Of a stretch of DNA of 45,811 nucleotides, positions 43,027-45,811 are shown one piece after another; the stretch's first letter is position 1; every line of letters starts with the position of its first letter. The DNA is from a candidate division WWE3 bacterium CG_4_9_14_0_2_um_filter_35_11 (GTDB taxonomy: Bacteria; Patescibacteriota; WWE3; 2-01-FULL-39-13): the NCBI GenBank assembly GCA_002789015.1, contig PFSJ01000025.1, forward strand, positions 1-45,811, read 5' to 3'. The notes under the pieces are model-generated. The model saw only the letters and a list, made by a program, of their open reading frames with translations. It was not told the origin of the DNA and ran no database searches. The position numbers and the translations under genes were made by a program.

Positions 43027-44121
43027 ATGTCTTCTGCTCTTAAGATTTGCGAAAAGTGTGATGGTGCATTTACTGGCTTAGTTTGCCTAAAGTGCGGGAA
43101 TTTTGCAGAATTCACAAACAAAGAAAATGATCAGCCAATCGCTTCAAAAGAAGAATTTGGTTTTTTGGCTTCCGTTATAAATGAAAACGCGGCTTTTGAA
43201 AAACCTGAAATCAATATTCCTAAATCGAAAAAGTTTAAGTTTTTATTTCCTCTAATTCTTGGTGTGCTTCTTTTTGGAATTGGATCGTTTGCATATTGGA
43301 GATTTGTTTATACTACTCCAGATTATATTAGCCCATTTGTACTTTCTGCTGTAGATGTAAGGCCTGGGGAAGTTGTTAGTGATGTTGTCGAAATTTCGGA
43401 TTCAAAGGAAAAGGCAATTCCGTTAGATATAAAACATGAGCAAGGCAGTTTTGATCAATATGATTTTGCTCAATTTGCTACTCCAGATACTTCACTTATT
43501 GTTTCAGCTTTTAATATTTCAGATGTTCTTACGAAATATTTTGATGATTTGGACGTACTGAAAAATATAAAAACTGAATTTGATATTTCAGATAGTGATA
43601 TTGATGTGTTTTTCTCGAAAGGGTTTGCAGTTTTATTTCCTAAGGAAGATTTTTCTACTTGGGGATTTTCAATTTATACAGCTGATAAAAGTTTCGCGGA
43701 TTCAAAGGTTAAGATTTTAAAAGCGAAGAAAGAGAAAAATAAGTTTATTTTTCATGATTATTTCGCAGGGGTTGTGGAAATAAAGCCAGCCGAAGGAACC
43801 GAAGATAAATCCATGTATTTCTTGTTGGTTTCAAATTCAAAAGAATATTTAGATCAGATGAAGGAGTCTTCAGAAGGAAATGTAACTAATTTGTCTACAG
43901 ATATAAAATATTCAAGAGTTAAAGATGATTTGCCAAATGTTGGTCAGGTCTTTATTTACCGAAAAATAGATTCATCGATTTGGGATTTATTTGTTGGTTG
44001 GATTGCTTCAAAGTATGACTATGTTGGTTTAGATAAAATTCTAATGGCGATTGATGCCCCTGGGACGGTTTTCTTTTCAAATAGCTCCAAATTAAAAATA
44101 ACAACCGCTGATATAATGTGA
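43027..44121 (+). CDS. Hypothetical membrane protein with N-terminal zinc-ribbon-like motif
   Basis: 'CEKCDGAFTGLVCLKCGNF' CxxC pairs; TM 'FLFPLILGVLLFGIGSFAYWRFVY'. Confidence 0.7.
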   Translation: MSSALKICEKCDGAFTGLVCLKCGNFAEFTNKENDQPIASKEEFGFLASVINENAAFEKPEINIPKSKKFKFLFPLILGVLLFGIGSFAYWRFVYTTPDYISPFVLSAVDVRPGEVVSDVVEISDSKEKAIPLDIKHEQGSFDQYDFAQFATPDTSLIVSAFNISDVLTKYFDDLDVLKNIKTEFDISDSDIDVFFSKGFAVLFPKEDFSTWGFSIYTADKSFADSKVKILKAKKEKNKFIFHDYFAGVVEIKPAEGTEDKSMYFLLVSNSKEYLDQMKESSEGNVTNLSTDIKYSRVKDDLPNVGQVFIYRKIDSSIWDLFVGWIASKYDYVGLDKILMAIDAPGTVFFSNSSKLKITTADIM

Positions 44122-44123
44122 AT

Positions 44124-44141
44124 AAGGGTAGCCCTTTTTTT
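44124..44141 (+). terminator. Short hairpin-T-tract terminator after the zinc-ribbon gene
   Basis: AAGGG-TAG-CCCTT followed by a T run directly after the stop codon. Confidence 0.6.
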
Positions 44142-44236: not shown

Positions 44237-44313
44237 GGGCGGATAGCTCAACTGGTTAGAGCATCAAGCTTATACCTTGAAGGTTCATGGTTCGAGTCCA
44301 TGTCCGCCCACCA
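44237..44313 (+). tRNA. tRNA-Ile (anticodon UAU), CCA encoded
   Basis: GGGCGGA-TA-GCTC-AACTGGTTA-GAGC-A-TCAAG-CTTATAC-CTTGA-AGGTT-CATGG-TTCGAGT-CCATG-TCCGCCC-A-CCA, full cloverleaf, anticodon TAT, A73. Confidence 0.93.
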
Positions 44314-44325
44314 GAAAACTATAGG

Positions 44326-44353
44326 TTGTGTCTTCTCGGTTTTGTGGTAATAT
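44326..44353 (+). promoter_or_regulatory. Putative sigma70-like promoter for the T-box transcript
   Basis: TTGTGT (44326-44331), 16-bp spacer, TAATAT (44348-44353). Confidence 0.5.
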
Positions 44354-44380
44354 ATCTGCGTACATTAAATAGGAAATGCT

Positions 44381-44690
44381 AAGACGAAGAGAATTAGTAG
44401 CGCTTTTTTGGTGACACTAGAGACTATGCGGATGCTGAAAGCATAGCGTACAAATCTTGCGTGAATTACCTCTTTTGAGCTGACCTTCTGAAATCCCTTA
44501 GAGATATGGGACAAGGATAGTTCGGGTGCTCCCGTTATAGAGATTAAAGTATGTCACACCAGAAACGGAGTACTTTATAAGGTCAACACGGTGACGTGTT
44601 GGTGAAGCAGGGTGGTACAGCCAAATTTAAGGCCCTTGCATTAACAGTTGTAATTAATTTACAGATGTTTTTGCAAGGGCTTTTTTGTTC
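44381..44690 (+). promoter_or_regulatory. T-box riboswitch (tRNA-sensing transcription attenuator)
   Basis: Stem I base AAGAG/CTCTT with AGTA...GAA loop-E pair. T-box core AGGGTGGTACAGC at 44609-44621. Antiterminator AGGG..GCC/GGC..CCT competes with terminator GCCCTTGCA...TGCAAGGGC-TTTTTT. Confidence 0.92.
44632..44686 (+). terminator. T-box intrinsic terminator
   Basis: GCCCTTGCA (44632-44640) / TGCAAGGGC (44672-44680) followed by TTTTTT. Confidence 0.93.
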
Positions 44691-44718
44691 TTTGCTCAAA
44701 TATCTCAATAAAAATAAA

Positions 44719-45600
44719 ATGTCGTTAAGCATAATAAAAGAAGCTTCGTCATCAATATCGTCGTTGGAAGATGTTTTTGGCCCTATTGAAGTAACATGTA
44801 ATCCAATTGCGGTGAACCAAAGATTTGAGCATCAGTTAAAAGAGGAACATATAAAGTTAGTTACAGTTTTATGTGTGCCATGTAATTCTGGTGGGTGGTT
44901 TTGTCGACTGGACGACCCTAATCATAAATCCACAAAACAACTTGCGAGTATTGGTGAAGCGATAAGAAATATTCAGAAGTCGGGTTTTGCAGTTGACTGG
45001 ACTGTAATATTGGGTGATGTTTCTAATTTTGTTGGGTTGTGTTTAGATGGACGTGGCATTGGTGAAGCTGTTAATTTATCTACTTCCTTTTTGACGTCGC
45101 ATGGAAATGCGCCATTTGGTGGTGCTGATTTTTTAACCCGTGAATACGAGGAAAGTCTTAATAAGGACGTTTTTAACGGTAATGTATCAGTGGTTTCAGC
45201 TTTAGCAAAAACAACAGGGTTGGGTCCAAGTATAGTTCAAGAAAGATTTGAAATGTCTAATTCGCTAATACGAGATTTAGGTTGTAGCAATGAGTGGCGT
45301 TTGCAAGTTGAAAATCTGGCTTGGGCGAAAGGGGCGAAAATAAAGAGTTTCCCTGATAGTTTGCAAATGCTGTTAAGCTTGAGTAAGGATGAGTCGAATA
45401 TTTGGTCAGAGGCATTATTTGAATTAATTGGTTCTGCAAGGGTAAGAGCCTTGGTTTCCGCATGTTTTCCTGCAGATAGCATTTTGGTTTCTATGCAGTC
45501 ACCAGAAGTTGATGATTTTTTCCATTTGCTAGATAATGGCGAAAGTTTTCCGACAATCAGAATTTTTCCTAAGGAGTTACTTAGTAGTCTAGATGATTAA
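44719..45600 (+). CDS. Unknown protein under T-box control
   Basis: MSLSIIKEASSSISSLEDVFGPIEVTCNP...; internal start of ORF 44596..45600, first ATG after the T-box terminator. No family recognised. Confidence 0.75.
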   Translation: MSLSIIKEASSSISSLEDVFGPIEVTCNPIAVNQRFEHQLKEEHIKLVTVLCVPCNSGGWFCRLDDPNHKSTKQLASIGEAIRNIQKSGFAVDWTVILGDVSNFVGLCLDGRGIGEAVNLSTSFLTSHGNAPFGGADFLTREYEESLNKDVFNGNVSVVSALAKTTGLGPSIVQERFEMSNSLIRDLGCSNEWRLQVENLAWAKGAKIKSFPDSLQMLLSLSKDESNIWSEALFELIGSARVRALVSACFPADSILVSMQSPEVDDFFHLLDNGESFPTIRIFPKELLSSLDD

Positions 45601-45602
45601 AT

Positions 45603-45811
45603 ATGATGGATTTTAATATGAAAATTAATGATTTAAATCTTTCAGATCCAATTGGCGTAGGACAAGTTGATTGGTCGAGAAATGTGAATATATCTACCAT
45701 TTTATGCCCCTTTATTAGGTCTGAAAATGATAAATGTGTGTTTTCTTCCGATATAAGATTTTATTCAAAAACAGAGGGAGAGCATTTTATAGATCAAGAT
45801 GAATCAATAGA
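45603..45811 (+). CDS. Unknown protein, truncated by window end
   Basis: ATG at 45603 stays open to window end: MMDFNMKINDLNLSDPIGVGQVDWSRNVNISTILCPFIRSENDKCVFSSDIRFYSKTEGEHFIDQDESI...; 2 bp after preceding stop. Confidence 0.65.
   Translation, partial: MMDFNMKINDLNLSDPIGVGQVDWSRNVNISTILCPFIRSENDKCVFSSDIRFYSKTEGEHFIDQDESI

Follow-up and report, generated by a model that had tools for sequence, protein, structure and literature searches.

The 3' end of the window, by which we mean the whole stretch of 45,811 nucleotides analysed here (contig C15 of a 750 kb host genome in 31 contigs, G000), carries a tyrosine T-box that, with a probability of about two in three, switches on two divergent paralogous genes when tRNA-Tyr is uncharged, their products having the fold shared by cyclodipeptide synthases (CDPS), isonitrile synthases and class Ic aminoacyl-tRNA synthetases; a sister histidine operon would respond likewise and additionally contains histidyl-tRNA synthetase (HisRS). 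The computation supports this reading through the leader, its specificity, its mutually exclusive hairpins, a protein superfamily, a fold match, the link to tRNA-His and HisRS, and the depletion of the cognate amino acid. The features of the window are as follows.

44237-44313, forward strand: tRNA-Ile(UAU) gene just upstream of the leader, found by ARAGORN and Rfam.
44372-44640, forward strand: T-box leader (RF00230), 74.5 bits, E = 2.6e-14, model positions 1-219, full-length.
44467-44469, forward strand: specifier UAC (Tyr), from the RF00230 alignment, one base after the loop-E GAA.
44607-44639, forward strand: antiterminator, from folding, with the canonical 7-nt T-box bulge UGGUACA at 44613-44619.
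44629-44686, forward strand: intrinsic terminator, stem GCCCUUGCA/UGCAAGGGC followed by U6, -29.3 kcal/mol.
44719-45600, forward strand: ORF1, 293 aa from ATG, with Cys52 at the end of strand 1 and a single Tyr.
45603-45811, forward strand: ORF2, the start of a second, paralogous gene, incomplete.

The T-box at 44372-44640 is genuine. Its 74.5 bits are lower than the Rfam gathering score of 93 for RF00230, yet far above chance, and in a genome-wide RF00230 search of the host the leader reached E = 8.0e-17; because the score falls under the gathering threshold, the default Rfam scan of the window lists two tRNAs only and misses the T-box. The loop E (AGTA/GAA), the specifier loop, the stem III region, the T-box core AGGGTGGTACAGC at 44609-44621, the bulge and the terminator all lie where a preliminary description of this DNA had placed them, and the Rfam covariance model, which that description had named as the appropriate check, matches significantly. 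The antiterminator and the terminator both need the strand GGCCCUUGC (44631-44640), which forms the 5' strand of the terminator, so that the two hairpins are mutually exclusive, as had also been described. The terminator is markedly stable (z = -7.6, with 0 of 200 shuffles equally stable), and the antiterminator by itself is not stabler than its shuffles (z = -0.6), as expected for a short helix. In a second species of the genus (G001) the leader is almost the same, and in one stem both strands are altered jointly, as judged by eye, between that species and the window (GACCUU../AAGGAUAGUU versus GGUUAUCU/AGAUAAUCC). The promoter scan found no strict sigma-70 site; a TTGTGT-16 nt-TAATAT match at about 44326-44353 was spotted by eye only. 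There is in silico support for a mechanism in which uncharged tRNA-Tyr would stabilise the antiterminator and RNA polymerase would then reach ORF1 and ORF2.

Judged from its sequence, the leader is tyrosine-specific, because UAC occupies the specifier, UGGU fits tRNA-Tyr and like leaders stand at tyrosyl-tRNA synthetase (TyrRS) genes. The specifier loop reads GAA-U-UAC-C, and the covariance model puts UAC in the specifier position, where it complements the anticodon of the host tRNA-Tyr(GUA); this tRNA, the one tRNA-Tyr(GUA) among the tRNAs read, has the discriminator A, and its ACCA end pairs with the bulge UGGU. An equivalent specifier arrangement precedes TyrRS in L014 (G005) and opens the L011/L044 operon of G053, which holds TyrRS. 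UAC is also the usual Tyr specifier, accounting for 99% in TBDB (PMC7778990). The adjoining tRNA-Ile(UAU) gene, which likewise lies upstream of the T-box in G001, hinted at isoleucine, a specificity that was rejected since an AUA specifier is absent; the tRNA is probably an independent gene. The host TyrRS is encoded on another contig (C29), on which no T-box was found, and the PF00579 matches of the host are confined to two loci, on C2 and C29.

The preliminary description had considered a T-box exceptional in a genome resembling those of the candidate phyla radiation and had proposed an undescribed amino-acid-responsive system. T-box matches at E ≤ 0.001 occur in 25 of 58 relatives and in 130 of the 389 sampled phylum genomes, 13 of the matches in the phylum sample exceeding the Rfam curated cut-off, and most of those inspected serve ArgRS, ThrRS, HisRS, LeuRS, SerRS, GlyRS, Asp/AsnRS, TrpRS or TyrRS. 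Since such leaders are frequent and mostly stand ahead of aminoacyl-tRNA synthetases, the rarity argument fails; what survives of the proposal is that unnamed genes lie behind a real leader, also in G001. The leader is an ordinary T-box, but its regulon is not ordinary: one genome places a CDPS-fold family without a name under T-boxes for two different amino acids. A search of the open-access literature, with subscription journals outside its range, found no work that connects Patescibacteria, or the candidate phyla radiation, with T-box riboswitches.

A few of the inspected phylum T-boxes serve a TrpD-like transferase or an AstE/AspA-like deacylase. The leaders at L015, L018, L019 and L028 (G040, G038, G028 and G012, respectively), whose stem I appears reduced, have the bulge UGGC and are followed by a TrpD-like gene (Glycos_transf_3, about 440 aa); this bulge would fit a tRNA with a G discriminator, such as tRNA-Trp. 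The Tyr-type T-boxes (UAC) at L007, L009 and L012 (G026, G033 and G047) are followed by an AstE/AspA-like deacylase, an identity checked by Pfam for L007, and by a second conserved ORF of no known family. The deacylase is Tyr-poor, with 3 Tyr among 312 residues in L007 and 2 among 310 in L012. Another Tyr-type T-box, at L010 (G030), scores above the Rfam cut-off and precedes a 303-aa ORF that is sulfatase/phosphatase-like by eye, though without a Pfam match, and not poor in Tyr.

Behind the leader of the window, ORF1 comprises 293 aa from its ATG instead of the 294 first given, the second ORF follows after 2 bp as described, and ORF2 is truncated because the window ends with the contig (45811). 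Neither ORF1 nor the truncated ORF2 matches any family in Pfam, NCBIfam or PADLOC or any PDB sequence, which agrees with the earlier statement that neither was recognised as an aminoacyl-tRNA synthetase, biosynthesis enzyme or transporter; ORF1 has no PHROG match either, and, being free of Pfam matches, it is not assigned to the class Ic synthetases (PF00579; HIGH/KMSKS). A defence system was rejected, there being no PADLOC family and a single weak match at E = 0.03, and a viral origin was rejected after a pattern scan of IMG/VR gave no relatives; the viral structure library returned only a phage cyclodileucine synthase and giant-virus TyrRS/CDPS. ORF1 was found again only in G001, where it is 81% identical behind the same leader, and the T-box together with both ORFs recurs in a second species, a recurrence that the preliminary description had proposed looking for. 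The ORF2 counterpart of G001 is apparently split by a one-base difference in a T-run (L035:4000-4200), either a sequencing error or a real frameshift, and is followed by a third ORF (L035:4929-5489, 186 aa, no Pfam or PHROG match), which in the window would lie beyond the end of the contig. Elsewhere in the window, a 364-aa ORF (43027-44121), conserved at the equivalent place in G001, has a zinc-ribbon-like N-terminal start (CxxC...CxxC), a membrane segment and no Pfam match. A short hairpin AAGGGTAGCCCTT with a T-run, present at 44124-44136 of the window and at about 800-830 of L004 after unrelated genes, is probably a repeated terminator.

The second T-box of the host, on contig C10, has the specifier region GAACACGCC and the bulge UGGG, which fits the unusual C discriminator of the host tRNA-His, and is followed by two unnamed, better-conserved ORFs (B and C) and then by HisRS. 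This T-box is histidine-specific, and the genome holds a histidine operon parallel to the tyrosine operon. The same order, His T-box, unnamed pair and HisRS, is found in G001, and in G017 the His T-box is followed by a D-type member and HisRS. Relatives of the C10 proteins occur in Doudnabacteria, Amesbacteria, Woesebacteria, Uhrbacteria, Komeilibacteria and others. They frequently lie in tandem, a conserved C-type paired with a diverged B-type, and the two types are homologous (hhalign E = 3e-15). Amesbacteria and Woesebacteria have the gene order tRNA-His, B, C, HisRS; tRNA-His(GUG) lies directly upstream of members in L091, L093 and L086, and HisRS shares an operon with members of the superfamily at five loci. 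An AstE/AspA-like deacylase gene adjoins the C/B pair in L084. The superfamily is rare and patchy, because just 10 of the 389 genomes hold a C, B or D member. For scanning the collection, a profile of the whole superfamily was too divergent, and one of the C-type subset worked.

By profile comparison, ORF1 is a distant member of this unnamed superfamily, with a similarity that is remote but above chance. The profile of ORF1 and its G001 copy scores 34.6 against the superfamily (A6), the maximum over 60 column shuffles being 19.2, and the C-terminal part of the G001 ORF2 counterpart scores 36.9 against the ORF1-superfamily profile, where 60 shuffles reach at most 20.6; hhalign gives ORF1 a probability of only 30%. 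Such weak sequence similarity would also be expected if the leader were real and the genes behind it were unrelated, fast-evolving genes present by chance, which we regard as very improbable given that leader and ORF1 are both kept in G001, that independent His T-boxes are followed by genes of this kind and that the proteins avoid the cognate residue.

Built from 14 sequences, the C-type model reaches a pLDDT of 92.6 and a pTM of 0.90. Its best PDB match in Foldseek is the CDPS 5ocd of Fluoribacter (E = 1.6e-4, probability 1.00), followed by the isonitrile synthases PIsnA (with L-Tyr or product) and PvcA, the CDPS of Rickettsiella, tRNA-bound CDPS and then TyrRS. The AF2 model of ORF1 is of moderate confidence (pLDDT 65.3, pTM 0.70), and its first 15 PDB matches are all CDPS (probability 1.00, E = 4.5e-4); it is not independent of the homology claim, because its alignment already held the superfamily. 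The Rossmann-type fold of CDPS appears in both models, with the moderate confidence just given for ORF1, and their TM-scores to CDPS are only about 0.4-0.55. According to these models, the products of the window genes have a CDPS/isonitrile-synthase/TyrRS-like fold and are distant fold relatives of the tRNA-using CDPS. Modification of free tyrosine or histidine by an enzyme like the isonitrile synthases could account for PIsnA and PvcA among the top C-type matches, but it seems most unlikely, as these enzymes rank under the 15 CDPS for ORF1, no isonitrile-synthase (PvcA/IsnA) Pfam family matches in sequence, and consumption of the amino acid would be odd under starvation control.

Membership of the CDPS by sequence was rejected, since PF16715 gives no match in ORF1, in other superfamily members or anywhere in G000, and the catalytic serine is replaced by cysteine; hhalign against four phylum CDPS sequences likewise gave no profile match. 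CDPS carry an acyl-accepting Ser at the end of strand 1 (PMC5816076, PMC7613923), and at that place, mapped by strand position and not by superposition, lies the single residue invariant across the aligned members including ORF1, a Cys (Cys47 in the C-type, Cys52 in ORF1). The YxxxE pair and the later Tyr of CDPS have no clear equivalents by alignment alone; the LxxxE(M)P motif was dropped as a counterpart of YxxxE, as in the model it lies on the strand after the long helix and not in the helix. CDPS derive from class I synthetase-like domains (PMC2922099), and the CDPS overview left out sequences without the catalytic serine, so that Cys-bearing proteins would not be counted as CDPS.

The proteins might nevertheless form a true tRNA-dependent peptide synthase, which would use Tyr-tRNA (in the sister operon His-tRNA) to make a dipeptide, cyclic or linear, that perhaps signals to the host; the Cys would accept the acyl group in place of Ser. 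The best structural matches are indeed CDPS, including the Phe-tRNA-bound 6y4b, a CDPS of Parcubacteria makes the His-containing cHP and cHE (PMC7613923, PMC5816076), and tRNA-His and HisRS genes adjoin; yet we consider this unlikely, as the T-box would then induce an enzyme that uses up charged tRNA at the very time of its scarcity, and neither the catalytic Ser nor a CDPS family match is present. About as improbable in our estimate are non-catalytic or regulatory synthetase-like partners that attach to the cognate synthetase or to the tRNA and assist or adjust charging. For such partners speak the fold common to TyrRS, the HisRS gene in the same operon at five loci, tandem paralogues that could form a heterodimer and the loss in ORF1 of most superfamily-conserved residues apart from Cys52, but an invariant Cys and highly conserved motifs in the C-type point to catalysis by one partner at least, and the host TyrRS lies on a different contig.

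The composition of the proteins bears on the specificity of both operons. ORF1 contains 1 Tyr among 293 residues where 11.1 are expected (p = 1.5e-4, for a pattern noticed in the data and not planned), the lowest Tyr share among the 222 host ORFs of at least 200 aa that were read, and its G001 copy contains 1 among 295. The His-linked members, of 423, 289, 270, 162, 252, 367, 291, 366, 288 and 349 residues, contain no His at all, against a background of 2 His-free proteins in 107. The G001 ORF2 counterpart (10 Tyr among 251 residues) and the host TyrRS are not Tyr-poor. Among the HisRS of the class (L193-L222), 15 of the 22 proteins read lack any histidine, an extreme cognate bias, with or without a known T-box; cognate depletion therefore marks starvation proteins generally, and the His-free HisRS was dropped as proof of T-box control. 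A protein required under starvation should avoid the residue in short supply, a cognate bias described earlier (PMC4209129). The avoidance observed here supports the Tyr and His specifier calls independently of the RNA, and depletion of a protein in the cognate residue can serve as a separate line of evidence for regulatory specifiers.

In the starvation-induced reading that we prefer, the ORF1 and ORF2 proteins would be made and needed when tyrosine runs short and would act on the cognate amino acid or its tRNA, with the invariant Cys of one or both carrying out an acyl transfer. Their role may be to restore or spare the cognate amino acid, by salvage, release of bound amino acid or an aid to charging, and not to consume charged tRNA; this role is put forward tentatively and is favoured because inducing a Tyr-tRNA-spending synthase under tyrosine shortage would be odd, its main rival being a signalling cyclodipeptide. 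The AstE/AspA-like deacylases behind Tyr T-boxes (L007, L009 and L012) and beside the C/B pair (L084) would fit salvage and are only suggestive. Somewhat short of even odds, in our estimate, is the wider proposal of a single-amino-acid starvation system of Patescibacteria. In it, Tyr and His T-boxes of one genome would control tandem Cys-type enzymes, a new family with a fold related to that of CDPS and class Ic synthetases; these would have as their target the amino acid in short supply, or its tRNA, and would contain hardly any of that amino acid. If right, it would give T-boxes a new class of target and the CDPS/class Ic synthetase superfamily a new branch that bears Cys, and offer a first view of how host-dependent Patescibacteria, auxotrophic for amino acids, cope when one of these is lost. 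The substrate of this unannotated family is directly testable, because the T-box specifier names the likely amino acid.

Compared with known systems, the avoidance of the scarce amino acid resembles the cognate bias of amino-acid biosynthetic enzymes (PMC4209129), in which starvation proteins behave alike, but here it is seen in proteins without known function and reaches zero His and near-zero Tyr. The isonitrile synthases PvcA/IsnA are the second-best fold match of the C-type model; the present proteins differ in having no sequence match to them and a genomic context of translation instead of secondary metabolism. CDPS of PF16715 (AlbC, YvmC, ParcuCDPS) are the best fold match of both models and are likewise related to class Ic synthetases, and the residue at the end of strand 1, here assigned by strand position, could carry an acyl group in both; the present proteins differ by the lack of a sequence match, the Cys in place of Ser, the tandem paralogous pair, the T-box control and the adjacency to HisRS and tRNA-His. 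The leader of the window shares with other RF00230 riboswitches, for example tyrS leaders, the full architecture, the UAC specifier, the bulge and the antiterminator/terminator pair, whereas its targets belong to no named family of synthetase, biosynthesis enzyme or transporter, and its host belongs to the Patescibacteria group. In the case of T-box-controlled aminoacyl-tRNA synthetase operons, the induction logic is the same and the histidine version likewise holds HisRS; the tyrosine version is without a synthetase in the stretch seen, and in the operons described here it is the CDPS-fold genes that take the leading position.
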